Below, in pieces: positions 44,106 through 60,936 of a DNA stretch of 64,000 nt. The stretch comes from a gamma proteobacterium symbiont of Taylorina sp. (GTDB taxonomy: Bacteria > Pseudomonadota > Gammaproteobacteria > GRL18), in NCBI GenBank assembly GCA_025655455.1, contig JAHXIV010000007.1:124001-188000 (forward strand). The letters are read 5' to 3'. Position 1 is the stretch's first letter. Each line of letters begins with the position of its first letter. The notes beneath the pieces are model-generated. The model made no database searches. It had not been told where the DNA came from and saw nothing but the letters and a program-made list of their open reading frames with translations. Both the position numbers and the translations under genes were made by a program.

Positions 44106-44405
44106 ATGTTTGAAAATACTGCGATTAAAATAACTACAAGTAAATTTGCGAGCACATCAGCATCATTATTACCGGGTTCTTTGATTCTGATTAGTGGAGT
44201 TGTTGTCTGGCGACTCTGGTACAAACAGGGACAGTTACAAACTAAAACCAGTGAACTCAGTGATGAACTAAAATATCTGAAAAAACAAATGGCTGAAATC
44301 AAAGCTACTAGTAAAGCAGATAGCGAGTCAGTAGCGCCACTCTCATCATCTCTTAAAAAAATGGCACGTTTTAATCCATGGTCTACAGCCAAAAGCAATA
44401 GTTAG
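44106..44405 (+). CDS. Small membrane protein with a coiled coil
   Basis: 99 residues with GGAG before the ATG: one membrane segment (LPGSLILISGVVVWRLWY) followed by a coiled coil (KTSELSDELKYLKKQMAEIK) and a basic tail. Gly-containing TM then aromatic/basic residues recalls the small proteins of the 48-61 kb cluster. Not recognised. Confidence 0.55.
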   Translation: MFENTAIKITTSKFASTSASLLPGSLILISGVVVWRLWYKQGQLQTKTSELSDELKYLKKQMAEIKATSKADSESVAPLSSSLKKMARFNPWSTAKSNS

Positions 44406-45394: not shown

Positions 45395-46744
45395 ATGTTT
45401 AAAAATAATATCAAAGAGTTATCAAAGAAAGTTAGTGCAATTGTTGATAATATCTCAATGCCAATAACTACAACAAAAATTGCTATAACCGGCTTAAGTC
45501 GTTCAGGCAAGACAATATTTATTACATCTCTGATCGAACAATTACTTCTTCAGAAAAAAATCACACCAATTACATCCAGGAAACAACCATTTAATGTAAC
45601 TATCAAATCTCCCACTACATTGATTAAACGCTTTGATTATTATTCATTAAAAAAAATAATCAAAGAATATCATCAATGGCCTGATGGCACAGATGATATA
45701 ACATCAACTATATTAGAGTTTGAAACTAAAAACCGCTATAGTTTTTTAAACAATTCAAAATTCAGGATTGAATTAATCGACTACCCGGGTGAGTGGATAC
45801 TTGATATTGCAATGATGGGTTTATCGTATGAGCAGTGGTCTGAAAAAACAATAAACTGGATGAAAAATATTGATGAAGAAATTGTGAAAGAATATTTAAA
45901 TAGCATTCACAAATTATCAGATAAAAGCAAAGGTGAAGGCATTGAAAACAATATCCACCAACAATACTCAAGTATGCTCTCATTTCTCAAAAAAAACCAT
46001 TATTCAAATCTGACACCAGGACGATTTTTGATGCCATCAGATTTGGCTCATGACCCGATTTTATGCTTTGCTCCAATTAGTCAGTCCGATTCATCATTAC
46101 ACCAGGTATTTAAAGAACGTTATGAGTACTATCTTGAAAATATCGTAAAAAATATTCAACTGGAACATTTTAGAGGCTTTGATCGGCAAATTGTTTTAAT
46201 TGATATTATCGAAGCACTTCAAAATGGTCACAATTGTTATTCAGATATGAAAGATGGTCTGCGTAATATGATGTCACTTTATGATCATAGAAATAAAAAT
46301 TTTATATCTCAGTGGTTCAGCTCTTCTATAAGAAAAGTAATCTTTGTTGCAACTAAAGCTGATTTAATAACTTCATCACAACACAATAACTATAGTGCCC
46401 TGTTAAACGAAATGGTTGAAGACATTAGAAAAAAAATGGATGTTGATCATATTAAGACTGATACGCATATTATTTCTTCTGTTAAGTGTACAGAAACTGT
46501 TCTTCGAGAGCATGATGGGAAGAATTTACCCTGTATTCAGGGGATATCATCAACAGAAAAGAAAAAAATTGTTCTTTATCCGGGTGAAATGCCGCATTCA
46601 TTCCCATCACCACAGGAATGGGATACCAGGGCATATAATTATGAAGTGTTTTTACCTTCCAATATTTCTTATAAAGATAACATTCCTTTTGATCATATTA
46701 ATATGGACAAGGTCGTTGACTCGATGATTGGTGAACTTCTATGA
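45395..46744 (+). CDS. ycjX: YcjX-like P-loop ATPase (DUF463)
   Basis: 449 residues. P-loop ITGLSRSGKTIFITSLIEQ, then LIDYPGEWILDIAMM and VIFVATKADLITSS, the nucleotide-binding motifs of the YcjX family; FLMPSDLAHDPILCFAP is another family block. In E. coli ycjX and ycjF belong to the phage-shock response. Overlaps ycjF by 4 bases (ATGA). Confidence 0.92.
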   Translation: MFKNNIKELSKKVSAIVDNISMPITTTKIAITGLSRSGKTIFITSLIEQLLLQKKITPITSRKQPFNVTIKSPTTLIKRFDYYSLKKIIKEYHQWPDGTDDITSTILEFETKNRYSFLNNSKFRIELIDYPGEWILDIAMMGLSYEQWSEKTINWMKNIDEEIVKEYLNSIHKLSDKSKGEGIENNIHQQYSSMLSFLKKNHYSNLTPGRFLMPSDLAHDPILCFAPISQSDSSLHQVFKERYEYYLENIVKNIQLEHFRGFDRQIVLIDIIEALQNGHNCYSDMKDGLRNMMSLYDHRNKNFISQWFSSSIRKVIFVATKADLITSSQHNNYSALLNEMVEDIRKKMDVDHIKTDTHIISSVKCTETVLREHDGKNLPCIQGISSTEKKKIVLYPGEMPHSFPSPQEWDTRAYNYEVFLPSNISYKDNIPFDHINMDKVVDSMIGELL

Positions 46745-47784
46745 CAACAAAGCCTTTTAAAGTTATTATTGATAACAATTCTAAAGAAGATACAATCGAC
46801 CCCCCAATAGCACCACGCACTTTTGAACCGGATCCGGAATTAGACAAAATAATCACTACCATTGATGAAGTGGGAGCTGGTAGTATCGAAAATTCTGGAT
46901 TTTACAAAATAATCCAACTTCTTGGCAGTCTATCAGGGATTTTCTTGTCGCTTATTTTGTTTGTATTTATTTCGCTATTCGCCCATACAATCGACAATCT
47001 TAGCAATCTCTTTCAATCTGCTCGCCTATCCGATTATTTATATATTTCAGGCTTGCTTGTATTTCTATCGGCATTAGCAATGAATATCATTTCAAACTTA
47101 AAGCAATTAAGACAACTACAGGCTGTCAGTCGACTTAAACAAAGATTCAATAAGCAGCAAAAAAATCCAACCGATGATACATTAATTTTAAGCAATGAAC
47201 TCCTTTTGTATTTTAAAAAAAATAAAGTAACTGAATTTCATGAACATTTTGATGAAACTAAACAAAAAATTAATACGACACAAAATTATTGTGAAATTTA
47301 CGACATACTGGATAATATATTGCTAGCCCCTTTGGATGAAAAAGCCAGGGTACTGATACATAAAGCATCACTTCAGGCTGCATTTTCTACCGCCATCTCA
47401 CCTATACCTCTTATTGATATGATTATAATTATCTGGAGAAGTTTAAAATTAGCAACAGATATATCCAAACTCTATGGCTATAGAACAGGTGGTTTAACCA
47501 GTGTTTTATTGTTGAAGCAAGGGGTAATCAATGTGATTTTTGCTGGCGTATCTGAACTAACACTACAACTAACAAATGAAATAACCAGTGCATCAGTTGT
47601 ACACAAAATTTCACATTCTGCAGGCCAGGGTATCGCAAATGGTATCCTGTTAACCAGACTCGGATATGGAATTTTAGATGCTTGCAGACCCTTAAAATTA
47701 TCAGGGAAAAGAGAAAATATTGCTAAATCAATTGTTGAATCATTGAAGAATTCATTCAAAACAAAAGAAGAAACAATAGTTTAG
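46741..47784 (+). CDS. ycjF: YcjF-like inner-membrane protein (DUF697)
   Basis: 347 residues with two membrane helices (IFLSLILFVFISLFAHTIDN and LYISGLLVFLSALAMNIISN) and a C-terminal DUF697 domain (KASLQAAFSTAISPIPLIDM, IIWRSLKLATDISKLYGYRT). Partner of YcjX by fused reading frames. Confidence 0.9.
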   Translation: MTTKPFKVIIDNNSKEDTIDPPIAPRTFEPDPELDKIITTIDEVGAGSIENSGFYKIIQLLGSLSGIFLSLILFVFISLFAHTIDNLSNLFQSARLSDYLYISGLLVFLSALAMNIISNLKQLRQLQAVSRLKQRFNKQQKNPTDDTLILSNELLLYFKKNKVTEFHEHFDETKQKINTTQNYCEIYDILDNILLAPLDEKARVLIHKASLQAAFSTAISPIPLIDMIIIIWRSLKLATDISKLYGYRTGGLTSVLLLKQGVINVIFAGVSELTLQLTNEITSASVVHKISHSAGQGIANGILLTRLGYGILDACRPLKLSGKRENIAKSIVESLKNSFKTKEETIV

Positions 47785-47952: not shown

Positions 47953-48150
47953 TTATGCTGTTTGGGGGGCTTCTTCTGCTGTTTCCTCAGCTTTCTTAAA
48001 CATACTAGTCACTTTTTTTGTCAGGGTACCAGCACCAGATGTGATTTTACCACCTGTATCTCCAAGTAACTGCTTGCTTGATTCATCTTTTACAACATAA
48101 GTAATTACTGAACCGGTGACTATTCCAAGTAAAAAAGGCATAACGGGCAT
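47953..48150 (-). CDS. DUF5132/PacL-like small membrane protein
   Basis: 65 residues, AGGAG six bases before the ATG. Single N-terminal membrane segment MPFLLGIVTGSVITYVV with GxxxG spacing, then a helical charged tail (GAGTLTKKVTSMFKKAEETA). Same architecture as the proteins at 57.06 and 60.58 kb; comparable to mycobacterial PacL partners of P-type ATPases. Divergent from the transporter-ATPase genes that follow. Confidence 0.65.
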   Translation of the reverse strand: MPVMPFLLGIVTGSVITYVVKDESSKQLLGDTGGKITSGAGTLTKKVTSMFKKAEETAEEAPQTA

Positions 48151-48460
48151 ATCAATCTCCTAATGGTTTGTAAATATAAAAGTATATATAGATTGTGCTA
48201 TTCAAGCTAACTATATATACTTTATAACATATATAGTAAGATAACTGCAAATAAAAAGTCTCTTTATTACGTGTGTTAAAGTTGAATTCCACATGCCGAC
48301 GGTATTAACGGCTGTTTAGCTGTGGGAAATAGAGACATAAATCAGACAAAGAAAAGTCTGTGAGGCAGTTTTTTTAACATATTTCAATGGTTGGGCTTGC
48401 TTATGCTTGTCTAAGCTGAAAAATAACTGGATAATATATACGCTGGAATCAATATAAGAC

Positions 48461-48560
48461 TCTCATCAAACATAAAACCGCCCACTGTCTTATTTGCAGG
48501 TGAAGATGTTTGCAAAACGACAGCAGGCAATTTTATTGGCCGAGGATTCTTATCAAACAT
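48461..48560 (+). repeat. Palindromic dispersed repeat copy
   Basis: CACTGTCTTATTTGCA (from about 48483) pairs with TGCAAAACGACAGCAG across GGTGAAGATGTT, followed by TTGGCCGAGGATTCTTATC. The centre is nearly identical to the copy at 30.76 kb. It ends just before the SDF-type transporter gene. The rest of the 48151-48577 gap is AT-rich promoter-like DNA without a gene. Confidence 0.65.
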
Positions 48561-48577
48561 AACCTGAGGAGGGGTGA

Positions 48578-49846
48578 ATGATTAAAAATTTTATAGAATT
48601 AATAGAGCAACACTTATGGTGGATATCGCTTTTATCTTTAACCACTGGCATATTCTGGGCAGATCAATCTCCAACATTTGCCTACTCAGTCAGTGATGCA
48701 ATGGAAAGCTTTATCGATGGCTATAGCTATTTTGCCCCGATAGCAATCTATTTAATTTTAACCCCCACGCTTACTAAGCTGATGTTAAGCGAAGCTCGTG
48801 GCAAAGACTTTGCAAAATACACTATTAAGTGGTTTGTTGTTGCCCGAATGATTGCCTGTGTATATGGTGTTATCTGGACCGCTATTGCCTTTGGACTGCC
48901 ATTATATTCATCCGTTGACGGCTTGTCAGAAGCGATTAAAGAGTCTTTAACTTCTCTTGGGTGGATGTTAACGCATAGCGTTTATTTTTATGCTATTTAT
49001 GCTTCCATTCTTACCGTTTTTATTGCATATAGAATTCCTAAGCTCGCTGACACCCTGGCAAAAGGTGTCGATCTTATCGAGTATCTGGGGCAGTTTATTG
49101 TACCCATTATCCCCTTCCTGATGATGGCTATTGGTGCTTATGTCACTATTTTACCTGAGCTTCTTGCAGAAAGTTTAGGACCCGAGATGGGTAATGTTAG
49201 TGTAAACACAGTAGCCATACTGGGTTTTCCGGTAGATATAACTACACCATTAGGGATGATTTTGCTGTATGTCCTGAGTGCCTTATTGACCGGATTTATT
49301 AGTGGAACCTGGCATGTTGGTTTACTTATTTTAGTCAAGCGTGCAAAACCGGATTTTTCTCTAAAAGAATACTTTTCTGTTTACTGGATAAAAGTTTATC
49401 CCATGCTATGGGCAACTTCTTCCGAAGCACTGGGAACACCACTTAATCTTCATATGATAAAAAAATTCTGCCCTGGCATTCCTGATGAAGTACGCCAGTT
49501 TGTAGTTGGTACTGGTTCATTTCTTAATATCAATGGCACCATTATTAATGTCTTTCTGATGACGGGTCTTGTAGCTACCATATTAAATATTGATATTTCA
49601 CTACTACAACTGCTGCTGTGTATTCCTATCGTATTTTTAATTGGTTATGGAGTGCCTGGCATACCCGGTGAATTAATACTTTTTGGTGGGCCGGTAGCAC
49701 TTTCTATGGGTGTGTCCCCCGAGTTAATGCCAGTATTTCTGGGTTTATTTATTGGTCTGCAGATAGGCTTGCCTGATTCGTTTCGAACGGCAGCCAATTC
49801 CACTGATGAGTGCTTATGTGCTATTATTCTTAACAAGCGATATTAA
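48578..49846 (+). CDS. Remote SDF (dicarboxylate/amino acid:cation symporter) family transporter
   Basis: 422 residues, about eight membrane segments plus re-entrant hairpins; strong GAGGAGGGG ribosome-binding site. Motifs align with SDF transporters: ATSSEALGTPLNLHMIKKF (HP1, usual TSSSAATLP), FLNINGTIINVF (usual NMDGTA), and LPDSFRTAANSTDECLCAII (HP2/TM8, usual RFRTMVNVTGD). Substrate residues differ, so the cargo may not be a dicarboxylate. Upstream of the first P-type ATPase, same strand. Confidence 0.75.
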   Translation: MIKNFIELIEQHLWWISLLSLTTGIFWADQSPTFAYSVSDAMESFIDGYSYFAPIAIYLILTPTLTKLMLSEARGKDFAKYTIKWFVVARMIACVYGVIWTAIAFGLPLYSSVDGLSEAIKESLTSLGWMLTHSVYFYAIYASILTVFIAYRIPKLADTLAKGVDLIEYLGQFIVPIIPFLMMAIGAYVTILPELLAESLGPEMGNVSVNTVAILGFPVDITTPLGMILLYVLSALLTGFISGTWHVGLLILVKRAKPDFSLKEYFSVYWIKVYPMLWATSSEALGTPLNLHMIKKFCPGIPDEVRQFVVGTGSFLNINGTIINVFLMTGLVATILNIDISLLQLLLCIPIVFLIGYGVPGIPGELILFGGPVALSMGVSPELMPVFLGLFIGLQIGLPDSFRTAANSTDECLCAIILNKRY

Positions 49847-49855
49847 TACTGTTTA

Positions 49856-49879
49856 ATCTTCCGCAATATTGCAGAAGAT
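49856..49879. promoter_or_regulatory. 24-bp near-perfect palindrome before P-type ATPase 1
   Basis: ATCTTCCGCAAT / ATTGCAGAAGAT pair with one mismatch and no loop. It lies 10 bases after the transporter stop and 40 bases before the ATPase start. Without a T-run it is more like an operator than a terminator. Confidence 0.45.
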
Positions 49880-49918
49880 CATTCATCATTGCTATTATTA
49901 ATTAAAGGAAGTTACACC

Positions 49919-52045
49919 ATGGTTCAATTTGGAATGATACTGGTTTTTGCCGGTGCAACTGCTGCGCCTTATGTAAAAAAAATGCTGACTAAGGCTAAAA
50001 GTAAAGTAGAGATTAAAAAAATAGCAGACTCGTCAAGTACGAATATGTCACAGGAAACAGATACTGAATTGGCTATTGAAGCTATTGAAGCTAATGAAGA
50101 ACGACATAAATATCGTTTTCTTATGACGACAGGAACCATGGGTGTTGCTGTAATAGCCCAAACCAGCCTGCCCTGGCTTTTGCCTGTCAGTTATCTGTTA
50201 ATCGGTTATTTCTCGTTCAATATTTTTCAGGAAGCGGCAAACGCTCTATTTAAAGAAAAAAGAATCCAGGTTGATATCCTTGATACCGGGGTGATTTTGT
50301 TGACATTGCTCTTCGGGCAGCTGGCCGCGGCGGCATTCATGGTCTGGATTATTGACCTTGCAGACATGCTGCTGCAAAAAACCACCAAGAAATCACGTAA
50401 CTATATAACCGACATATTTGGTGAACAGCCCCGTTTTGCCTGGTTACTCGTTGATGGCACAGAAGTCCGGGTCGAAGTAAAGGACTTGAAACAAGATGAT
50501 ATTGTCATCGTTGGTACGGGCGAACAGATACCTGTTGACGGGGTTATCATCGAAGGCGGAGCCATGATTGATCAGCAAAGCCTCACCGGTGAATCTGTTC
50601 CGGCAGATAAACATGAGAATGAACAGGTTTTTGCTACCACTGTGATAGTTGCCGGAAAGATTAAGGTTAAAGTACAGGAAACGGGTGAAAATACCCTGGC
50701 ATCTCAAGTGATATCAATTATCAATGAAGCTTCCAACTATGATGTCAAGTTGCAGTCTGTTGGTGAAAAAATAGCAGATAAAATGGTTGTACCAACCATG
50801 GGTCTGGGCGCCCTGGGATACGCAATGGTCGGACCAGGTGCCTTACTTGCCATCATAAATGCTGATTATGGTACTGGCATCCGTATAGCAGCTCCCATCG
50901 CATTACTGGCTTCATTGGGTAACGCCGCAAAAAATGGCATCCTGATTAAACATAGTGAAGTCGTCGAAAAACTAAAAGACATTGATGTTGTACTATTTGA
51001 TAAAACGGGTACTTTGACCCAGGAAGTACCGACTGTATCCAGAATTGTAACGGCAGATGAAACGTATAACGAAGAAAAAATCCTGTTTTGCACGGCAACC
51101 GCCGAACAAAAATTTTCTCATCCGATTGCCGCCGCTATTTTGCAGAAAGCCAGAGATGAAAATATAGAATTAGCAGAATATGATGAGTCTCAATATCATG
51201 TTGGTCTGGGTATTGAAGTAGAAATTGGCGAGGACTGGATTAAGGTGGGTAGTCCCCGCTATATGGAAAGTGAAAATATCAAGATTCCAAAAAAGATTAA
51301 AGCAGCATTAAAAGAGACCGGTAAGCGTGGGCAATCGGCGATATTGACGGCGATCAATAACAAAGTGGCGGGCATGATTGAGCTGCAATCCACAGTAAGA
51401 GAGGAAGCCGCCGATGTCATAGCTGATTTAAGACGCTTAGGCATTAAAGAAATTGTTGTTATTTCAGGTGATAGTGAAGAACCCACCAAAGAGCTTGCAC
51501 GTCAGCTCAACATTGATCGCTATTTTGCCGGAGTACTTCCTAATGAAAAAGCCGATTATGTGAAATTACTACAGGATGAAGGCAAGAAAGTAATGATGGT
51601 TGGCGATGGCATTAATGATTCTGCTGCTCTTTCTCATGCTGAAATTGGCGTCTCATTAAAAGGTGCATCTACCATTGCGGTTGATGTTGCTGATGTGATC
51701 TTCATGGATGGCTCTCTTACCAAATTTCATTATCTGTTTGAGGTTGCTGACAACCTGCAAAAAAATGTAAAAAGAAGCTTTCTGATGATTGCAATTCCGA
51801 ACACGGTTTGTATTGTCGGTGCCTTTATGGGATTTTTTGGACTAAAAGCTTCACTGGTTCTGAATAATGGTTTCAATCTGGTTGCCGCTGCAAATGGAAT
51901 GCTGCCCTATACTGAAATAGAAAAAAGAAAGGAAAAAAGCAAACTTGAGCATAAAGAAGATAAAGAAGATAAAGAAGATAAAGAAGATAAAGAAGATAAA
52001 TCGACGGTCAAAAGACTTATTAAATATATATATATTCATAAGTAG
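49919..52045 (+). CDS. P1B-like P-type ATPase 1, no HMA domain, atypical TM6
   Basis: 708 residues from ATG 49919 (AAGGAAG upstream). N-terminal Gly/Ala membrane segment, then the MA-MB hairpin, actuator domain LTGESVPADK, phosphorylation site DKTGTLT, HP motif FSHPIAAAIL, and GDGINDSAAL, so catalytically complete. The TM6 site, normally SCPCALVISTP, reads DYGTGIRIAAP: Cys-Pro-Cys becomes Tyr-Gly-Thr. No metal-binding Cys pairs at the N-terminus. C-terminal KED repeats. Cargo cannot be inferred from standard P1B motifs. Confidence 0.9.
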   Translation: MVQFGMILVFAGATAAPYVKKMLTKAKSKVEIKKIADSSSTNMSQETDTELAIEAIEANEERHKYRFLMTTGTMGVAVIAQTSLPWLLPVSYLLIGYFSFNIFQEAANALFKEKRIQVDILDTGVILLTLLFGQLAAAAFMVWIIDLADMLLQKTTKKSRNYITDIFGEQPRFAWLLVDGTEVRVEVKDLKQDDIVIVGTGEQIPVDGVIIEGGAMIDQQSLTGESVPADKHENEQVFATTVIVAGKIKVKVQETGENTLASQVISIINEASNYDVKLQSVGEKIADKMVVPTMGLGALGYAMVGPGALLAIINADYGTGIRIAAPIALLASLGNAAKNGILIKHSEVVEKLKDIDVVLFDKTGTLTQEVPTVSRIVTADETYNEEKILFCTATAEQKFSHPIAAAILQKARDENIELAEYDESQYHVGLGIEVEIGEDWIKVGSPRYMESENIKIPKKIKAALKETGKRGQSAILTAINNKVAGMIELQSTVREEAADVIADLRRLGIKEIVVISGDSEEPTKELARQLNIDRYFAGVLPNEKADYVKLLQDEGKKVMMVGDGINDSAALSHAEIGVSLKGASTIAVDVADVIFMDGSLTKFHYLFEVADNLQKNVKRSFLMIAIPNTVCIVGAFMGFFGLKASLVLNNGFNLVAAANGMLPYTEIEKRKEKSKLEHKEDKEDKEDKEDKEDKSTVKRLIKYIYIHK
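51951..52000 (+). repeat. 9-bp tandem repeat, about 5.5 copies
   Basis: Unit ATAAAGAAG repeated in frame, coding a Lys-Glu-Asp run at the end of ATPase 1. Copy-number change would keep the frame and alter only tail length. Confidence 0.9.
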
Positions 52046-52195
52046 GGTGTGATGATTTTAGATGTATAGTAGCGGGTAGCGACCTCACCGCTACCCATCA
52101 TAGTCAAGCAAATCTGCAATCTATTGTATTTTCTGACATAGGGGTAGGGGAAGTAAAAATGAAGAATCTATGGGGATACAGATGCAATAGAAAAA

Positions 52196-52627
52196 TCAGG
52201 CAATCTCTTTAACTGTTTCTTGCTCTGGTTCTTCGGCTTTGAGAAGGTTGGCAACAAAGCCAAGCTCATCTTTATATTGTGGTATCTCAGGAATATCCCA
52301 GGTTTTTCCAACAATACGGGCGAGTATGTTATTCATCCAGGGTTTATTTGATTGCGCTTTATGTAGAATAAATTGATAATTTTCCTCATCGCCCAAGATT
52401 TCAAAACCATCCAGGGCAACCTCAATCGCTTCTTCTTCTCCATAAAGTGTGACCTTTACAAAGGCGGTGTGTTGATCCAGGTCGTAAAGAATATCTGAAA
52501 ATTCTGCAACACCTTTAAGCAGGATATTAGCGACTGATACGACTAATATTTTTGGTGTTAATTTTGCTCCTACTTTTACTGTTCGTTTTAATAGGTTGCT
52601 TTTTAATAAATTACTTTTAAAACCCAT
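52196..52627 (-). CDS. Unknown 143-residue protein in the ATPase cluster
   Basis: AAGGAAGG before ATG. N-terminus with duplicated SNLLK, basic, then a moderately hydrophobic helix (KLTPKILVVSVANILLKG) and a mixed alpha/beta C-terminal part (AFVKVTLYGEEEAIEVALDG, KTWDIPEIPQYKDELGF). No family recognised. Convergent with ATPase 1, same strand as the DoxX fusion. Confidence 0.6.
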   Translation of the reverse strand: MGFKSNLLKSNLLKRTVKVGAKLTPKILVVSVANILLKGVAEFSDILYDLDQHTAFVKVTLYGEEEAIEVALDGFEILGDEENYQFILHKAQSNKPWMNNILARIVGKTWDIPEIPQYKDELGFVANLLKAEEPEQETVKEIA

Positions 52628-52805
52628 TTTATCCTTCCTTCTGTGATAAACCTAATTAACTCAGTTAAATCTAGTTAGAGTGACTAAGTAGATTCAGCCG
52701 GGTTTTTTAGGATAAATTATTATTATAAACTGCTGCTTCAGCTTGAGGTGCTTGTATTTGGGTAGGTATATGAGATACCCACCCGCTGTGTCGTGCACTT
52801 GAGGC

Positions 52806-53948
52806 TCAAGCGTGTTGCGGAGTCCAACTGCTTCCCCCGGGGCCGATGGGCCCGAATTCATCGTCTGGATTTTTCCCGGAATCAGTCTTATGGTCTTCTG
52901 AGTCACTCTTTTCAGAGTCCATTTTGGCTTCTTCTTCGGGATCCTTGTCAAACCCAAGCTTGCGCGCAATGACGGCGTCGGCACTGTAAGGGCCAGGGCC
53001 TTTGATGACCAGCCATAAGAAAATGATAACATACAAGACCTGAGGCAGATACAAAAACCAATCCAGCCAATCGAGAGGGCCGAGTCCTGGTGGAATTACG
53101 AAGGGAATCTCAACTGTTACAATGGCTACGATCATCGCAAATGCCAGCGCAATGGAAAAGAATGTTGACATGAACCCGACGGTAAGAAGGGCACCGCCGG
53201 CAAGTTCGAGCCAGGCTAAAACAAGAGACATGAACTTTGGAAAAGGTAAGCCTGTCGCAATCATCGCAGCTAACAGGCCGTTCCAATGCGAAACCATGAA
53301 CAGCTTGTTCCAGCCGGAAATTGCAAAGAACAAACCCATAGATACTCGTGCTAACAGGACTGGGAACCATTCCCAGCGAGGCTCTCCCTGCAGCATTATT
53401 CGGAACAGATATTTAATTCGCGCCATAAAATCGAAAGGTGCGACTTCTTTCCCGCTATCATTATCAATTAATCGTGAACCTTCGGTCAAACTGGAGATCA
53501 TTTTTCGTCCTGACAAATCGACACTTAATACCAGTGATGCCATTAACCAGTTTCCTGTTACCAGAGAGCCTGTCAGTGCTAAGCCTGCCAGGATACCCAG
53601 GGGTGAGTTATGTTTAGGTTTTTCGAATAGATATCGGGTGCGCAGCCAGTTGTAAGCACTGTAGCCAATAACCGGCACAGAGACGAGCATCAGCGGGGGA
53701 TACCATATTCCTGCTGCCGACAGACCCAGAGCCGCACGTGCGGCAAGCGCTGAGCGCTTTATCTGGATAGGGTCACCACTGGCCATGACCGGTGGATCCT
53801 GTTCTTCGGGATCGGAATGGGGTGTGTCCGGGGTTGGTTGGGAAGAGGCTTGCGTGGCCAGACGTCTGCGACGAAAGTGCTCCTCCGCCAGTCCGAACAG
53901 TCCACCCCCGGCTATAGCCAGAGGTGCGAGAACAATAAAGGGAATCAT
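52806..53948 (-). CDS. DoxX-like protein with a P-type-ATPase-like N-terminal membrane region
   Basis: 380 residues from ATG 53948 (AGGAAG upstream; GTG 53954 is in frame). N-terminal Gly-rich segment (PLAIAGGGLFGLAEEHFRRR), then four hydrophobic stretches (GLSAAGIWYPPLMLVSVPVI and on) that resemble the region before the actuator in both ATPases here (for example GLSLIGTWFYAPLLPIAGVA). The C-terminal half is a DoxX/DoxD domain (ARVSMGLFFAISGWNKLF, LAWLELAGGALLTVGF). The tail is acidic and Pro/Gly-rich. The gene is visibly richer in G+C than its neighbours. Confidence 0.75.
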   Translation of the reverse strand: MIPFIVLAPLAIAGGGLFGLAEEHFRRRRLATQASSQPTPDTPHSDPEEQDPPVMASGDPIQIKRSALAARAALGLSAAGIWYPPLMLVSVPVIGYSAYNWLRTRYLFEKPKHNSPLGILAGLALTGSLVTGNWLMASLVLSVDLSGRKMISSLTEGSRLIDNDSGKEVAPFDFMARIKYLFRIMLQGEPRWEWFPVLLARVSMGLFFAISGWNKLFMVSHWNGLLAAMIATGLPFPKFMSLVLAWLELAGGALLTVGFMSTFFSIALAFAMIVAIVTVEIPFVIPPGLGPLDWLDWFLYLPQVLYVIIFLWLVIKGPGPYSADAVIARKLGFDKDPEEEAKMDSEKSDSEDHKTDSGKNPDDEFGPIGPGGSSWTPQHA

Positions 53949-54184
53949 CAGCACTTCCTATTAAAATAAAAGAGTTAAGGAATATAACAAGTGTTAAAGG
54001 TATTCTCATTAATCTAAATTAATAAAAAAGAAATCAATAAAACTAAACTATATATGATTATAGAGATAGACTGTATTCACTGAACTTGTATCTTACTGCA
54101 AAAAACAACTAGAATAAAGGCTTAAGTATGAAAAAAATGAACAATTATATTTGTTTATCTCAATATAGTCGTAGTTTAGGCTGA
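53941..54184. repeat. Diverged direct repeat, copy A (promoter plus leader ORF)
   Basis: Shares with copy B (54521-54740): GGAATCATCAG, AATATAACAAGTGTTA about 40 bases later, and a leader ORF with AATTATATTTGTTTATCTCA. Spacing of the landmarks is nearly the same in both copies. Spans the gap between the DoxX fusion and the DUF2892 gene. Confidence 0.6.
54128..54184 (+). CDS. 18-codon leader ORF, copy A
   Basis: MKKMNNYICLSQYSRSLG then TGA, with AAGG seven bases before the ATG. Similar in sequence to the 31-codon ORF that runs into P-type ATPase 2 (ICLxQYS shared). Here no plus-strand gene follows, so it may be a relic. Confidence 0.35.
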   Translation: MKKMNNYICLSQYSRSLG

Positions 54185-54283
54185 ACGTGATGATGTTGCG
54201 GTCTATAATCCGGGTGATGGGATGTCTCTATGAGGGTAGGGGAGAGATGATGCCCGCTTTTCAGGACGGGCAAATAGCTGCGA

Positions 54284-54487
54284 TTAAGCCATCTCAGCGC
54301 AAGATTTTAATCCCATTTTCTCAAAGATCATTGTTGCAGGACAAAAGCCTGTAAATGATGATTGAAACAGGTTGAAACCTACGAATGCAGTTAATAATAG
54401 CCAGTAAGGGCTTGCATAATAGGCTAAAAGTAAGCTGCCCAGAATAAATGAACCTGCCAAAGCGGTAGTCATTCTTTCAGAAGTCAT
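54284..54487 (-). CDS. DUF2892 (YgaP-TM-like) small membrane protein
   Basis: 67 residues, AGGAGAAC before ATG. TALAGSFILGSLLLAYYAS and LLTAFVGFNLFQSSFTGFCP then ATMIFEKMG match DUF2892 inner-membrane proteins, often linked with sulfur or rhodanese functions. Inserted between the two copies of the duplicated leader region. Confidence 0.85.
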   Translation of the reverse strand: MTSERMTTALAGSFILGSLLLAYYASPYWLLLTAFVGFNLFQSSFTGFCPATMIFEKMGLKSCAEMA

Positions 54488-54520
54488 TATTAGTTCTCCT
54501 CATCTTAATTTATTGGTTGT

Positions 54521-54740
54521 TCAATATAGTACAAGAACGATGGAGGGAATCATCAGAATCCCCAAATCTGAATTTAACATATATATAGAATATAACAAGT
54601 GTTAAGGTATTATATATGACTATGAATATAGGGTGTACTTAACAGCTTTAGTGTTTTATTATATGGAACCATCATGATAAAAGTTGAAGCATGGAAAAAA
54701 TAGATAATAATATTTGTTTAACCCAATATAGCGAGGGTTA
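54521..54740. repeat. Diverged direct repeat, copy B, with a decayed DoxX-fusion start
   Basis: On the minus strand from 54553 the frame reads MIPSIVLVLY then stop, a clear relic of the DoxX-fusion N-terminus (MIPFIVLAPLA). The following AATATAACAAGTGTTA and leader ORF match copy A. So a unit of DoxX-fusion start, promoter and leader was duplicated. Confidence 0.6.
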
Positions 54741-54786
54741 TGGCTGTAGAATATTCCCTTTTGCTGCAGATTTTCTGCAATGCTGA
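54691..54786 (+). CDS. 31-codon leader ORF overlapping P-type ATPase 2
   Basis: Reads MEKIDNNICLTQYSEGYGC then a short Phe-rich end finishing in Cys and TGA; three Cys in all. Its last seven bases overlap the ATPase start (AATGCTGA). The ATPase ATG has no ribosome-binding site and is preceded by TGCAGA-TTT-TCTGCA (54765-54779), so translation of this leader may be needed to start the ATPase. Confidence 0.5.
   Translation: MEKIDNNICLTQYSEGYGCRIFPFAADFLQC
54765..54779 (+). promoter_or_regulatory. Hairpin directly before the ATPase 2 start codon
   Basis: TGCAGA pairs with TCTGCA around TTT, and the ATG begins at the next base. It would hide the ribosome-binding region until the leader ORF is translated. 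Confidence 0.45.
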
Positions 54787-56936
54787 TACAAATATTATTA
54801 TTCGGAGGCGGTGTGATTTTTGGCACAAGAAGTACCCGATATCTTCAAAATCGCCAACTTATAAATAACACCCTAAACAAAGGCCAGCCTTCTAAACCCA
54901 AACTTAAAGTCAAGCCGTCCAGTCTCTATCAAAAAACCAAAACCGGTATACTTGCAGCTAAAGATATCATTAAGATTTCCATGAGCGGTGGTGAGTTGCG
55001 TGATCAACACATTAAACAGATGACTATTGTGGATGAGAATCATCAGTTGGATGCCTCTGCTATTTCCTCAGAAAGAAAACTGAATAAAAGCATTAAAGGA
55101 TCGATAGGCTTAATGGGTCTATCCCTGATAGGCACCTGGTTCTATGCTCCCTTGCTGCCCATAGCTGGTGTTGCCACGCTCTATATTTTTACTCCTGTTT
55201 TTAAGAAATTATTTCAAAATCTGAAGAAAGGGCATATAACCACCGAGCTTATTGAAATTATTTCTGTGATTAGTCTCCTGGCATCAGGATTTTTCTTTTT
55301 GGCAATTTTCATCACTTTTACAAGTTTATTGTGTCAAAAACTGCTGACTCGAACCGAACAGCATTCACATAAACAATTAATTAATAGTTTTAGCCAAAAA
55401 CAACAATCTGTATGGGTGCTAAAAGAATGTTCTGAAGTTGAGATACCTTTAGCGGAGGTAAAAAAACAGGATATAGTGGTAGTCAATGCAGGTGAGATTA
55501 TTCCGGTTGACGGCATGATAATAGAGGGATTAGCAAGTGTTGACCAGCACGGCCTGACAGGAGAGTCAAAATCCATAGAGAAAGAAGCTGGAGGAAAGGT
55601 TTTTGCCTCTACCCTGGTATTAGGCGGGCGAATTCTGATTAAAGTAGAAAATACTGGTGCGGATACCAATGCGGCAAAAATTGGGCTAATCCTGGAAAAA
55701 ACACAGGAATATAAAGAAAGCCTGCGTTTACGAGGCAAACAGATAGCCGATGATTTCATTGCGCCAACCCTGGTTGTCAGTGGCTTAACCTTGCCCTTGC
55801 TTGGCCCAAGCGCGGCGATGGCTATTATCTGGACTGCTTTTGGTTACAATATGAAATTGTATGGGCCGATTAGTGTATTAAATTTTTTACACATTATGGC
55901 AGTAAATGGCATATTGATAAAGGATGGACGCTCACTGGAAATGTTGCAAAAAGTGGATACCCTGGTATTTGATAAAACCGGCACATTGACCATGGAGCAG
56001 CTACTGCTTAGCCGTCTCCATCCACTTGAACCTTTTGATGAAACGACTTTGCTAACTTACGCTGCGGCCGCTGAATATCGACAAACCCATCCCATTGCCA
56101 GGGCTATACTCACAGCAGCAGAACAACGTGAGATGGATTTGCCCGACATTGAAGAAACTGCATGCAAGATTGGATACGGTATTGAAGTCAAAATTGATAC
56201 AAAGCTTGTACAGGTAGGCAGTGCAAAGTATATGGAACAACAGGATATACATTTTTCAGATCAGATTCAGAGCTTAAAAACCGAATCTGATGACAGGGGG
56301 CACTCGCTTGTGTATGTTGCTGTCGATGGAGCACTAGCCGGAATGCTGGAATTACAACCTTGTATTCGCCCGGAAGCCCAAGAAATTATTGATTATGTAA
56401 AAGCCCAGGGTATTTCAGTCACCATTATTTCTGGTGATCACGAGCAACCGACTCGCCAGCTTGCCAATGAATTAGGCATAGAACATTATTTTTCTGAAAC
56501 ACTACCTGATAAAAAAGCAGAACTGATTGCCAGGCTGCGTAAAGAAGGAAAATTTGTCGCTTATGTCGGTGACGGAATTAATGATGCCATCGCCTTAAAA
56601 CAGGCCAATGTATCCATCTCGTTACGCGGTGCTTCAAGTGTCGCTACTGATACCGCCCAGATTATTTTGATGGATGGTGATTTAAAGAAATTAAAATCCT
56701 TATTCGAAATTTCCAGATTCTTTGAAGCCAATATGCGTACTAATTATTTAACCTCAATAATACCCGGTGCAATTACTCTGGCGGGTGTGTTTCTCTTCAA
56801 TATGGGACTCGCTGGCGGTATGCTTGTCTATTTCAGTGCAAAAATGGTGGGTCTGACGAATGCCATGCTGCCGTTGCTAAAACATGAAAATAAGCAGGCA
56901 ATAGCTGAAATAGAGCAGGTCAAAGAGCAGGAATAA
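54780..56936 (+). CDS. P1B-like P-type ATPase 2, no HMA domain, atypical TM6
   Basis: 718 residues. N-terminus MLIQILLFGGGVIFGTRSTR, then soluble linker, MA-MB hairpin, actuator LTGESKSIEKEAGG, DKTGTLT, HP motif QTHPIARAIL, GDGINDAIAL: a complete catalytic core. TM6 reads AFGYNMKLYGP where other P1B pumps have SCPCALVISTP, so Cys-Pro-Cys becomes Phe-Gly-Tyr. Paralogue of ATPase 1 in overall layout but well diverged. Start overlaps the leader ORF. Followed by a PacL-like gene. Confidence 0.9.
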   Translation: MLIQILLFGGGVIFGTRSTRYLQNRQLINNTLNKGQPSKPKLKVKPSSLYQKTKTGILAAKDIIKISMSGGELRDQHIKQMTIVDENHQLDASAISSERKLNKSIKGSIGLMGLSLIGTWFYAPLLPIAGVATLYIFTPVFKKLFQNLKKGHITTELIEIISVISLLASGFFFLAIFITFTSLLCQKLLTRTEQHSHKQLINSFSQKQQSVWVLKECSEVEIPLAEVKKQDIVVVNAGEIIPVDGMIIEGLASVDQHGLTGESKSIEKEAGGKVFASTLVLGGRILIKVENTGADTNAAKIGLILEKTQEYKESLRLRGKQIADDFIAPTLVVSGLTLPLLGPSAAMAIIWTAFGYNMKLYGPISVLNFLHIMAVNGILIKDGRSLEMLQKVDTLVFDKTGTLTMEQLLLSRLHPLEPFDETTLLTYAAAAEYRQTHPIARAILTAAEQREMDLPDIEETACKIGYGIEVKIDTKLVQVGSAKYMEQQDIHFSDQIQSLKTESDDRGHSLVYVAVDGALAGMLELQPCIRPEAQEIIDYVKAQGISVTIISGDHEQPTRQLANELGIEHYFSETLPDKKAELIARLRKEGKFVAYVGDGINDAIALKQANVSISLRGASSVATDTAQIILMDGDLKKLKSLFEISRFFEANMRTNYLTSIIPGAITLAGVFLFNMGLAGGMLVYFSAKMVGLTNAMLPLLKHENKQAIAEIEQVKEQE

Positions 56937-57061
56937 AAATATGCTGCTGTTGCTTTGCCATCATCCTGAATCCTTTAATGACTTGATTTTATCTGTTTAT
57001 AGAACTAAAGTAATGGATTATGTTATAAATTCTATTTAACTTAGTATTAAAGGTGATTATT

Positions 57062-57292
57062 ATGGGTTTACATTTAGTTCCTTTCCTCATTGGTGCAGCA
57101 GTAGGTTCTGTGATGACTTATATTTATAAAGATAAAGCCAGCCAGAAAAAAATAAAAGATGTAACACAAGATGCTTCTGATAAAGTAAAAGCGGCAGCAC
57201 AAGATAGTTCTGATAAAGTAAAATCAGCGGCACAGGATGCTTCTAAAAAAGTGAAATCTTTTGTCAAACCTGATAAAGTTGACGAAGAGTAG
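57062..57292 (+). CDS. DUF5132/PacL-like protein with 11-residue LEA-like repeats
   Basis: 76 residues from ATG 57062 (AAAGGTG upstream). Membrane segment LVPFLIGAAVGSVMTYIYKD, then three near-identical 33-base units (57167-57265) coding QDASDKVKAAA-type 11-mers as in group 3 LEA or YtxH-like proteins. 125 bases after ATPase 2, same strand; likely its small partner. Confidence 0.7.
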   Translation: MGLHLVPFLIGAAVGSVMTYIYKDKASQKKIKDVTQDASDKVKAAAQDSSDKVKSAAQDASKKVKSFVKPDKVDEE

Positions 57293-57505
57293 AAAAATTG
57301 CTGATTTAGGGGGAGATGTATCACAAAAACAGATTTTTTAAAGTGAACACTTTATTGTTAGTTTTACCCAATCCGTTGGATTACTAAAGTATATAAAGCT
57401 ATATTGCTGTCCAGATAAACATTGACTCTCAGTTTCCTGGATAATAATCAGAGCATAGAGGGATCTAAATGACTTTTTATGTTTTTAACATTTTTCGAGG
57501 ACTTC

Positions 57506-57748
57506 ATGATGGATCCTGTTAGTCAGTATGTAATATCAAAAGGTGTAGCTGCTTGTGCTACAAAAGCGGGCGTTGCTACAAAAGCTTGTATTGCAAAATT
57601 TAGCTCTGCAGCAAAATCGGCTTCTACAAAAGCAGCTACTTCTGCAAAAGGATCAGCTAAGGCAGCTACTTCAAAAGCAGGAGCTTCCGCATCCCGTAGC
57701 GACTGTGGAGCATCATGTGGATCAATTTCCGAAGCAGGCGCACCTTAG
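57506..57748 (+). CDS. Ala/Lys/Ser-rich small protein with a Cys-containing end
   Basis: 80 residues, GAGG before ATG. DPVSQYVISKGVAACATKAG, then Ala/Lys/Ser repeats (STKAATSAKGSAKAATSKAG) and a C-terminal SRSDCGASCGSISEAGAP. No membrane segment. Facing a cyclic-peptide-type ABC exporter across 215 empty bases. Could be a secreted or modified peptide, or a nucleoid-like basic protein; function unknown. Confidence 0.55.
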   Translation: MMDPVSQYVISKGVAACATKAGVATKACIAKFSSAAKSASTKAATSAKGSAKAATSKAGASASRSDCGASCGSISEAGAP

Positions 57749-57963
57749 GGGGGCTATCCAAAAATAACTTCCCGATCCTGCTTGTCCTATTATCTATATT
57801 CTGCGTTGTAGCAAGAGTTACGTAGAACGTCTATGCGCCCCTGTAAATACAAGCTGACCAACCGAATACGGGAGGTTAATCTGAGTAGTTATGGAAATTC
57901 AATGGCATTTTTCAATCTATAAATTGGGAATATTGGTGTTTTGATTCTGGTGATTGGCACTCA

Positions 57964-59628
57964 CTAAATTCGGTTAACCATTCTTCCTTCTTCCATTTTC
58001 AATAGTCGATCAGCGACATGAAAATAATGATCGTCGTGGGTAACGGCAACCACTGTTTTACCCATTGCTTTAATCTCGGGTAATAATTTTTCATAAAAAT
58101 ATTGGCGGAACTGAGGATCCTGATCCGCAGCAAACTCATCCATGACCAGAATAGGCTTGTCTTCCAGAATGGTAGCAATAAAGGCAAGTCGTTTTCTTTG
58201 TCCAGTTGACAGGCTGGTTCGGGTGAAACCGCCATTCTGATATTCTACCTTGTCCTGCATTTTCATCTTTTTTAGCCAGTAATTGACTTTTTCACTATCA
58301 ATGTTTTCTATGCCGTAGAATTTGTCAAAAAGATGAAAATCGGTAAAAATAGCAGAAAACAAGTCGCGGTAGGCAGGGTAACTGGTTTTATCAATAGCGA
58401 TGGAATCAACAAACAGATTGTTGTTTTCAGGATAATACAAACCTGTCAATAGCTTGAGGTAGGTTGATTTACCACTTCCGTTACCGCCAATAATGAATAA
58501 TAACTCTCCTTTATAGATCGTTTCATTAAAAGGGCCAGCGGTGAAGTCAGAACGATTCTTAAGGTCAGAGCTAGAGTCAGTGGGGTAGGTAAAACTGACA
58601 TTTTTCATGCTTATTTCTTTAAAATCAGAGAAAATAAGATTACTGCATTCTTCTTCTTTCTCATCATCATCATTAGGCCTGGAAAATGCCTTGCTAATGA
58701 CTTGATCCATTTCTGCCTCAAGACTAACCAGTTCGTCAATAGACAGGTTAACTCTATTTAATACAGGCATAATGTTAATCAAAATAGCAATCGGCCCAGT
58801 AATAAACAGGATAGTTGAGGATATTTTGTAGATATTATCTGTTTGGATTTCACTGATACTGGGAATAACAAAAATAAGCACGGGTAACAAGGTATAAACA
58901 AGAATGCGCCCATGTCCCCAGAGCCTGGACTCCTGTTTGCCGACTTCTAACTTGATTTTTTCTATTTCAGCTGATTCTGTAGCTATATTTTGTAAAATCG
59001 CCTGACCTTTTTTGCGATTTATTTTGACTTCTTTAAAACCGTTGATCAGATGTGAAATGGATTTAAAGTAACTCGTTTCCTTCTGCTTGACTTCCTGTAA
59101 CAATGCCTTAATATGTTTGGTTTTTGCCAGAAACAGAGCAGCAGAGACAAGAATACCTGCCATGCTGATTAAAAAGCTTGGGAAAGAAATATAAGCCAGA
59201 TACAGAAAAGAAAAGATCAACAATACAGACATCTGTGCAGCCCCCGTGATCTGGGGAATCGCCTGGGATATCAGCATATCGCTTTGCGTAAAGCGGGCAT
59301 ACAGGCTATTACTTCCCTGCTCTTCCATAAAAGGCAATTCGACTTGCTGAATTTTGCGGGTCAGGCGAATTCTTACATTATAAATGGCATCTTCAATGGT
59401 AATAATAGCCCGCTCAAAAGCAAACCACTGGGCATAAAGAAAGAGTGCGAAGGCAACCATATACAGCCAAAAATATTGAGTCAGGTTTTCATTGTCAGCA
59501 ACTGCCTGGGTTGCATGGTTGACAATACCCAGAAGCAGGCTATTGGCAATACCGGCAATGGCAACGATCAACAGGATTTGCTTATAGGGTTTGCTGGTTT
59601 CTTTTTCGATGAACTGAATCAATCGCAT
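57964..59628 (-). CDS. Cyclic-peptide-export type ABC transporter (fused permease and ATPase)
   Basis: 554 residues. N-terminal six-helix membrane domain, then an ABC ATPase: Walker A IIGGNGSGKSTYLKLLTGLY, signature TSLSTGQRKRLAFIA, Walker B ILVMDEFAADQDPQFR, H-loop VAVTHDDHYF. STGQRKRL and DEFAADQDP are typical of the SyrD/PvdE/YojI subfamily that exports siderophore precursors, lipopeptides or microcin J25. No peptide synthetase or modification enzyme is near. Confidence 0.9.
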   Translation of the reverse strand: MRLIQFIEKETSKPYKQILLIVAIAGIANSLLLGIVNHATQAVADNENLTQYFWLYMVAFALFLYAQWFAFERAIITIEDAIYNVRIRLTRKIQQVELPFMEEQGSNSLYARFTQSDMLISQAIPQITGAAQMSVLLIFSFLYLAYISFPSFLISMAGILVSAALFLAKTKHIKALLQEVKQKETSYFKSISHLINGFKEVKINRKKGQAILQNIATESAEIEKIKLEVGKQESRLWGHGRILVYTLLPVLIFVIPSISEIQTDNIYKISSTILFITGPIAILINIMPVLNRVNLSIDELVSLEAEMDQVISKAFSRPNDDDEKEEECSNLIFSDFKEISMKNVSFTYPTDSSSDLKNRSDFTAGPFNETIYKGELLFIIGGNGSGKSTYLKLLTGLYYPENNNLFVDSIAIDKTSYPAYRDLFSAIFTDFHLFDKFYGIENIDSEKVNYWLKKMKMQDKVEYQNGGFTRTSLSTGQRKRLAFIATILEDKPILVMDEFAADQDPQFRQYFYEKLLPEIKAMGKTVVAVTHDDHYFHVADRLLKMEEGRMVNRI

Positions 59629-59760
59629 ATTTTAAAAATGTCCTAGTCTTGAATAGATACATTATATAGAAATCGAATGGAAAAAGGGAGTTTCACAAAA
59701 CCAGATGCTGTATCTCTTGGCCGTAGCCAATTATGAGGTCAGGTTATAGATTACAGGCTG

Positions 59761-60519
59761 CTAGCAAACCATGCTTTTATCAAATTCACCCATGTCTGCA
59801 AGTTTTTCTTCGTCAAGAATATACAGTCTTTTATGGTGACATTCAATCAGGCCTAGGTTACGAAACTGACGCAGGATACGATTAACATGTACATTGGTTA
59901 ATCCAACAGCATCACCAATGTCTTCCTGAGTCGGAGGAAAAACAACGCTGTTGGTTTCGGGGTCATAATTTCGGTTCAAATGTTCACGTGTGCGGTGAAA
60001 CAATTCCAGTAATAAAAAGGCAATACTTTCATAGGCATCCTTTCTGCTCCGAAATGCCTGATGTTGCTGGCATAAATTCATGTCTTTGGATCCCATCGAA
60101 GCAAGGCGTAATGCCAATGTGGGATTCTCTTCAAGCATTTCCTGCAGCCGGCTGCGTGGGAAACCACAAACAATCGATTCAGTGAGGGCTGAGACTGAGT
60201 GTGAAACCATACCCTTTTGATCCGTCTGAAAGCCAATAAAATCGCCGGGCAGAGCAAATCTGAGAATTTGACGTTTTCCTTCTCTGGAGGTCTGATGCAT
60301 AGCCATCCAACCATCAAACAGCGTATAAACATAATCCGTTACACTTTCTTCATGGTATAAAAGGGTTTTAGCTGGTACAACAAACTGTTGATCTCGATAT
60401 TTTTGTGTCCATTCAAGGCGCTCAGGAGGTATGCCCTGAAACAAAGCCAGCTTCCGGATAGGGCATTGGTTGCATGCTGTATGCGGCTGTTTGCGTATTC
60501 GAATAGATTTTTGCTTCAT
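59761..60519 (-). CDS. Crp/Fnr family transcriptional regulator
   Basis: 252 residues. An N-terminal CNQCPIR cluster precedes a cyclic-nucleotide-type sensor domain (VPAKTLLYHEES, FALPGDFIGF) and a C-terminal winged helix-turn-helix (TQEDIGDAVGLTNVHVNRIL). The two N-terminal Cys recall Fnr but I do not see the full four-Cys set. Likely controls the membrane-platform genes around it. Confidence 0.88.
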   Translation of the reverse strand: MKQKSIRIRKQPHTACNQCPIRKLALFQGIPPERLEWTQKYRDQQFVVPAKTLLYHEESVTDYVYTLFDGWMAMHQTSREGKRQILRFALPGDFIGFQTDQKGMVSHSVSALTESIVCGFPRSRLQEMLEENPTLALRLASMGSKDMNLCQQHQAFRSRKDAYESIAFLLLELFHRTREHLNRNYDPETNSVVFPPTQEDIGDAVGLTNVHVNRILRQFRNLGLIECHHKRLYILDEEKLADMGEFDKSMVC

Positions 60520-60582
60520 TTAATTTTTCACAATCATGATTTTTATATGGGAAGCCGATAAATCACAGTATCGGCGTTCTGT

Positions 60583-60936
60583 TTATCTTTCTTCAGCAGC
60601 TTGTTTTGCCCGTTCCATTATGACTGAAATGACAGGTATGCTAAATTTGCCGCCTGTCTCCCGCAATCGTTCTAACAAGATATCAACGGGTGGCTCGGAG
60701 AGTTGTTCATAATTATAGATACCGATGGTATCCAGTGCTTCTGCCAATTTAGGACCGACACCCTTCAGCTGACTAAGGTCATCACGTATTTCTTTTAAGG
60801 ACTCTTTTTTGGTTAATGACTTTTTTCCAGTTTCATTCTCTTCATCACCATGCGTTTTTTTCGCCATATAAGAGTTATACAGTTTGTCAGCAGCCCAACC
60901 AACAGAGACACCAGCTAAAAATACCAATATATTCAT
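60583..60936 (-). CDS. Membrane-anchored helix-hairpin-helix protein
   Basis: 117 residues, AGGGGAA before ATG. Short N-terminal Gly-containing membrane segment NILVFLAGVSVGWAADKLY, charged linker, then a helix-hairpin-helix domain (LSQLKGVGPKLAEALDTIGI, NYEQLSE). The anchor resembles those of the DUF5132-like proteins at 48 and 57 kb. The HHH unit may mediate protein or nucleic-acid contacts. A perfect palindrome lies 24 bases upstream. Confidence 0.75.
   Translation of the reverse strand: MNILVFLAGVSVGWAADKLYNSYMAKKTHGDEENETGKKSLTKKESLKEIRDDLSQLKGVGPKLAEALDTIGIYNYEQLSEPPVDILLERLRETGGKFSIPVISVIMERAKQAAEER

Follow-up and report, generated by a model that had tools for sequence, protein, structure and literature searches.

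The window analysed here is a 64,000-nucleotide stretch of contig C3 in a 4.5-Mb gammaproteobacterial genome. The locus under study encodes two P1B-derived P-type ATPases without an HMA domain, A1 (49919..52045) and A2 (54780..56936), both on the forward strand, together with several small or composite membrane proteins. Every open reading frame (ORF) listed in a preliminary description of this DNA was found to exist. The start of A1 was set at the ATG common to its orthologues, in an ORF that begins with TTG at 49889; A2 opens with an N-terminal Gly-rich transmembrane (TM) segment, TM0. On the reverse strand between the two pump genes lies a fusion of an ATPase N-terminal membrane module with DoxX (52806..53954). 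Two paralogous single-pass proteins with a Gly-rich anchor are encoded by s1 (65 aa, 47953..48150, reverse strand), which is YtxH-like, and s2 (76 aa, 57062..57292, forward strand), where three tandem 33-nt repeats (57149-57247) give three 11-residue Lys/Ala/Asp repeats. The HHH protein (60583..60936, reverse strand) combines a Gly-rich N-terminal anchor with a putative helix-hairpin-helix domain, and has an orthologue in genome G007.

Both ATPases are full-length and matched TIGR01525 at 448.8 and 394.8 bits (cut-off 346.25), and no HMA match was obtained in A1 or A2, in agreement with the preliminary description of them as HMA-less and P1B-like. The HMA domain is common in P1B-type ATPases and is not universal. 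In a collection of 87 family members, for which the DKTGTLT and GDGIND motifs were required, neither the GMxCxxC motif (0/87) nor a CPC, SPC or TPC motif in TM4 (0/87) was found. The CPC position is usually taken by a Gly-containing stretch (FGY, FGN or YGT), with the second Pro usually retained, as in A2 (FGY, then GPIS); TM4 of A1, a member of the earliest-branching subtype with a 60.6% identical homologue in Candidatus (Ca.) Albibeggiatoa, reads YGTGIRIAAPIA. The TGE motif was invariant among the aligned members and the HP motif was kept; with the two required motifs, the invariance of TGE implies selection for the phosphorylation cycle. Six canonical P1B ATPases from the same loci all had CPC (6/6) and scored at most 411 bits, versus at least 651 for the family, and a maximum-likelihood tree split the family from these six with 100% SH-aLRT. 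Subtypes in the tree were common to the window genome and giant bacteria, and A1 was among the earliest branches. An AlphaFold (AF2) model of A2 (mean pLDDT 71, pTM 0.60, residues 1-93 of low confidence) gave CopA and ZntA as the best folds in the Protein Data Bank (PDB).

The family thus resembles the P1B-type ATPases CopA and ZntA in its TIGR01525 score, fold, catalytic motifs and HP motif, and differs from them in the missing HMA domain and CPC/SPC/TPC motif, the extra N-terminal Gly-rich TM segment and the presence of up to 22 paralogues per genome. Judged by their sequences, both window ATPases belong to a distinct P1B-derived family, large and undescribed in the open-licence literature, and the lineage appears to have radiated after loss of its metal site, so that automatic annotation probably misleads when it calls these genes "heavy metal translocating". 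With the CPC site lost, efflux of soft metals is unlikely, which does not in itself prove another substrate; we infer a substrate other than soft metals, such as a hard cation, a proton or an organic molecule. The likeness of the TM4 "PIS" to lipid flippases was considered and is not claimed, as it rests on a short motif and the fold matches favour P1B. Eight complete family ATPases and one truncated copy are encoded in the window genome, on contigs C3 and C4; these counts rest on searches and fetched stretches. Contig C4 also encodes a canonical CPC-type P1B ATPase (L027:1906-4695), the N-terminal extension of which resembles nearby DUF697 proteins and which has orthologues in related metagenome-assembled genomes (MAGs).

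A Gly-rich N-terminal segment followed by basic residues had been noted in several proteins of the locus; it proved real and general across the ATPase family. For 67 of the 87 ATPases, a first TM could be detected within the N-terminal region. In these 67 segments there were 2.1 Gly per 17 residues, versus 0.86 in a comparison set of 333 other N-terminal TMs of the same loci; the next 20 residues held 5.2 Lys or Arg, versus 1.7. The p-values of this enrichment are overstated, since the sequences are related. None of the anchored window proteins has a positive charge among its first five residues, which speaks against a cleaved signal peptide, and a clear cleavage site was likewise lacking. From their sequences, the segments look like uncleaved anchors with the N-terminus outside, as the preliminary description had supposed in taking them for anchors.

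A similar anchor was found on proteins other than pumps. In Electrothrix gigas, a Kelch-like protein encoded upstream of bbp, the gene for the actin described below, starts MFIEVCLLSLGVFASSELYKKI and an ATPase of the family starts MFIETCLVCFGLLTGSELYQKI (40% identity over 42 residues, E 7e-6 and 7e-7). Weak anchor matches at the sequence level were obtained for the window HHH protein (0.0024) and a small anchor (0.010); the HHH part of the former scored below Pfam cut-offs. Ca. Thiothrix singaporensis has a YtxH-like homologue of s1, encoded next to a family ATPase gene (L190:1129-1374); of the two small proteins of the window, one had a YtxH match, which was sub-threshold (26.3 bits, cut-off 37.5). 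The DoxX protein was confirmed to have an ATPase-like membrane region: the DoxX domain scored 51 bits, hhalign paired residues 63-161 with the opening membrane helices of the ATPase profile (94.6%, E 6.8e-8), and residues 3-151 align with the truncated ATPase paralogue on C4 (2e-13). Both alignments point to a DoxX domain joined to a membrane module of the ATPase type. The fusion is 80-87% conserved in four related MAGs and was found only in relatives of the window genome and one further MAG, so it was rejected as a widespread component. Pump-less ATPase modules (the DoxX fusion and truncated ATPases) were found both in the window's family and in MAG-124; Thiothrix gave a weaker match.

A second ATPase cluster, on contig C4, encodes a MamK-family actin (C4:89021-90034), a link that the preliminary description had overlooked. 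Its best PDB match was MamK (E 2e-74), and its score for NF040964, 382.1 bits, was below the curated cut-off of 400. It is 61% identical to the E. gigas protein, 62-65% to those of Thiomargarita and 65% to that of Desulfonema magnum, and the identity is 60-66% over a set made up of these three and Thioploca, Ca. Parabeggiatoa, Ca. Albibeggiatoa, Ca. Thiothrix singaporensis and Zetaproteobacteria. Bbp is the MamK-like actin named "big bacteria protein" (Geelhoed et al. 2023, PMC10580974), and by sequence we assign the C4 actin to it. A magnetosome reading was rejected, as the actin scored under the MamK cut-off and grouped with Bbp.

The co-occurrence of the ATPases with Bbp is the strongest result of the analysis. 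Genomes were searched with a profile built from 15 HMA-less ATPases. Among 34 named genomes selected for Bbp (about 60% identity or more), including Thiomargarita, Thioploca, Parabeggiatoa, Thiothrix, Desulfonema and E. gigas, 31 had the family in 1 to 22 copies each; here and there a canonical ATPase close to the threshold may have been counted, while presence is robust because the best matches were far above canonical scores. Genomes with only distant MamK-like proteins had the ATPases in 0/4 cases in the named scan; in another comparison, 1/35 such genomes had them, versus 34/37 Bbp genomes. An even draw of 369 Gammaproteobacteria (271 genera) gave ATPases in 4/4 Bbp genomes and 4/365 others (Fisher p 9e-8, a value that ignores relatedness and should be read as an effect size). 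In a draw of 375 Desulfobacterota, either gene was found only in its centre, D. magnum, and the ATPases in 0/374 Bbp-negative genomes. Within the cable-bacterium family (74 genomes), Bbp was present only in E. gigas, which has four ATPases, and 3/73 Bbp-negative genomes carried one to three. Scoring in the large draws was limited to the three top candidates of each genome, and most genomes are MAGs, so that absence calls depend on completeness. Since the ATPases were found almost only in Bbp-encoding genomes, which are giant or filamentous sulfur bacteria, cable bacteria and a few kin, they may serve membrane organisation in very large bacteria.

The two genes were also physically close. In Thiotrichales BB31, Thiotrichaceae S015_18, a Thiomargarita MAG and a Mariprofundaceae MAG, no more than a few kilobases separate ATPase genes from bbp. 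Directly upstream of bbp, a single-TM, coiled-coil-like adaptor was found at about 20 loci, including one zetaproteobacterium. The bbp region of Ca. Thiothrix singaporensis contains SPFH, solute-binding, C45 and DUF697 genes and, close to bbp, an ABC exporter gene whose product is 59.6% identical to that of the window; SPFH and solute-binding genes flank ATPases in two Desulfobacterota MAGs, and DUF697 genes in one.

The preliminary description had treated about 13 kb of the window as one unit. Its core genes are real, and A2, the DoxX fusion, a 143-aa protein, A1, an SDF relative and the small anchor are syntenic in related MAGs, with the ABC exporter, regulator and HHH genes adjoining this core in G007 as well; the locus is, however, one of at least two clusters (C3 and C4) in its genome. 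In the related MAGs G012 and G005, a single contig carries both kinds of cluster, with about 40 kb between them; isolates BB4, BB34 and BB36 are among the related MAGs of the window's family. Recurrence in other genomes, anticipated at the outset, was seen for the ATPases across Gammaproteobacteria, Desulfobacterota and Zetaproteobacteria, and small Gly-rich anchors accompany them in some lineages.

We tentatively favour, as quite possible, the reading that the locus is one of several clusters of a Bbp-linked membrane system built around these pumps, which would form a compartment or domain positioned by Bbp. Its core would be the radiated P1B-derived ATPases, with the phosphorylation cycle kept and the soft-metal site lost. 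The N-terminal Gly-rich helix, with the N-terminus outside and basic residues inside, would pack the pumps into a common membrane domain or internal compartment, and the other bearers of the helix (the DoxX fusion, the HHH protein, the small anchors and the Kelch-like protein) would join the same domain. Such a system would be modular, with a common anchor on different working parts (pump, DoxX, HHH or Kelch). MamK positions magnetosomes, and Bbp filaments, acting through the small TM-coiled-coil adaptor, may likewise position the compartment in large or filamentous cells. The likeness to the MamK cytoskeleton extends to the closest solved structure and to a TM-coiled-coil partner encoded beside the actin; the score under the curated MamK cut-off is a difference. 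From the family, its motif loss, the anchor enrichment, the split from the sampled canonical P1B ATPases, the co-occurrence with Bbp and the adjacency in several lineages, all visible at the level of sequence, we infer the shared compartment and its positioning by Bbp. The stronger proposal of a new Bbp-positioned compartment or domain, energised by CPC-less ATPases, with the Gly-rich anchor as an address tag and contributing to giant size, we consider rather doubtful.

Bbp is one gene proposed for the genetic basis of bacterial gigantism. We know of no conserved partners of Bbp so far; a pump family that tracks it across Gammaproteobacteria, Desulfobacterota and Zetaproteobacteria would supply candidates for such partners and a possible signal for targeting, and would make direct tests available. 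In the paper on Bbp, the term "ATPase" occurs only in the context of actin (PMC10580974). As read from the sequences, what appears to be new here is the connection of Bbp with P-type ATPases, together with the small adaptor and the common anchor.

Several observations weigh against a Bbp-linked system. ATPases without Bbp were found in G158, G163, G199, G350, G485, G486 and G490, and three Bbp genomes had no ATPases. According to PMC10580974, Ca. Thiomargarita magnifica lacks Bbp and some cells of normal size have it. Outside the window's family, no conserved ATPase operon was found, the genes being mostly scattered singly, and among 120 flanking proteins from these genomes no Pfam family occurred more than 5 times. 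CPC-less relatives with a different N-terminus exist elsewhere, as on a Methylobacterium radiotolerans plasmid, which suggests by sequence that the anchored, Bbp-linked group is only part of a wider CPC-less lineage. The plasmid protein (pMRAD05, L244:3344-5797) has LGTGIRMAAPLA in TM4 and is annotated as a heavy-metal ATPase. Part of the pattern could also come from shared ecology and gene transfer among mat bacteria. In its full form, that explanation holds that the ATPases and Bbp both spread among sulfidic-mat bacteria and have unrelated jobs. Repeated transfer of bbp between Gammaproteobacteria and Desulfobacterota has been inferred by Geelhoed et al. (PMC10580974), gene exchange among filamentous mat bacteria is documented (PMC10580974, PMC6390638), and the ATPases adjoin many unrelated genes. 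We nevertheless regard it as unlikely, given that nearly all other genomes in both even draws, 271 genera in the gammaproteobacterial one, were without the family, that ATPase genes stand close to bbp in several lineages, and that the Kelch-like protein encoded in the bbp cluster of E. gigas has its anchor in common with an ATPase.

Other explanations concern the task of the pumps. They might serve secondary-metabolite or lipid handling, each copy being fitted to a neighbouring biosynthetic pathway: the flanking genes included AMP-binding (5/120) and PP-binding (4/120) proteins, acyl-CoA dehydrogenases, EgtD-like methyltransferases and large multi-domain synthase-like ORFs. The distance control from the same loci had AMP-binding in 1/122, so that the difference is small (5 versus 1) and the excess of AMP-binding and carrier-protein genes is at most suggestive; most ATPase copies have no such neighbour, and we hold this to be very unlikely. 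Slightly less probable still is the metal-efflux platform, analogous to mycobacterial PacL-CtpC, that the preliminary description had proposed. A pump-plus-anchor platform remains compatible with the data, as small single-pass anchors are encoded with P-type ATPases here as in the PacL1-CtpC zinc efflux platform (PMC9374683), and SPFH/Band-7 proteins occur near bbp clusters. The metal-efflux part of the analogy was not supported: CPC is lost in 87/87 members, s1 and s2 have neither a Cys or His tail nor the C-terminal metal-binding motif that the PacL scaffold carries (PMC9374683), DUF1490 (the PacL scaffold) was unmatched in the window proteins at E up to 1, and DUF6110 gave no match. The two small proteins had been called DUF5132-like, an identity we rejected because neither matched PF17195; the control genomes gave no match either. 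Next to A1 or A2, the only regulator recognised was Fnr-like, and no metal-responsive one was seen. The organelle pump of the ferrosome (Fez) is likewise a P-type ATPase; this reading was rejected, as no DUF4405 (FezC) match was found among the window proteins scanned. Least probable of all is that the ATPases are degenerate, non-transporting regulators, for which the lost ion site and the truncated copies could speak, and against which the selected phosphorylation cycle argues.

The remaining features of the window lie around the two pump genes. The SDF (dicarboxylate symporter) relative (48578..49846, forward strand) had been correctly noted; the relationship is distant, with a match of 61.8 bits confined to the C-terminal half, and the gene is syntenic with A1 in related MAGs. 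The 143-aa protein (52196..52627, reverse strand), of unassigned family, is syntenic with the DoxX fusion there. The domain match of the DUF2892 protein (54284..54487, reverse strand) was recovered under the family's present name, YgaP-like TM. The ABC exporter, with TM and nucleotide-binding domains (57964..59628, reverse strand), and the Crp/Fnr-type regulator (59761..60519, reverse strand; best NCBIfam match FnrL, 94.8 bits, under the cut-off) were both identified as described. A Lys/Ala-rich ORF ending in Cys (57479..57748, forward strand), listed earlier as a small protein, exists as an ORF; its membership is doubtful, no homologue was found in any of the fetched loci, and it may not be a gene. 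At lower coordinates than s1, a single-TM, coiled-coil-like protein (44106..44405, forward strand) is a paralogue of the adaptor upstream of bbp, and it is followed by a YcjX GTPase (DUF463) and DUF697 protein (45395..47784, forward strand), DUF697 paralogues of which are present in the bbp cluster too.

An operator-like element, a near-identical inverted repeat TAACA-N2-TGTTA (sites TTAACANNTGTTATATTC), had only 3 matches in 305 kb when up to 3 mismatches were allowed. One copy, GAATATAACAAGTGTTAA, lies at 53980..53997, 26 nt upstream of the DoxX fusion, and the second at 54588..54605, between the YgaP-like gene and A2 and 101 nt upstream of the former. The third is at C3:193427, 62 nt upstream of family ATPase A3.

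Some family ATPases have distinctive neighbours. The bbp/ATPase cluster on C4 (L027:14965-18795, L028:10478-13887) includes two EgtB-like genes, an EgtD-like methyltransferase, two SelD-type genes (one fused to a flavoprotein) and a glycosyltransferase-like gene. By our own reading of the family names, these genes may serve ergothioneine and selenoneine biosynthesis. An EgtD-like histidine methyltransferase is encoded near ATPase A5 of the window genome, and others adjoin family ATPases in two unrelated families (L109:2877-3824, L112:3573-4589). Several genomes of giant bacteria and related organisms have family ATPases next to genes for carrier proteins, AMP-binding proteins and large synthase-like proteins with multiple domains (L102, L103, L108, L209, L211 and L218). 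Two adjacent HSP70-like proteins of 620 and 956 aa are encoded next to family ATPase A4 (C3:211161-216000, L061).

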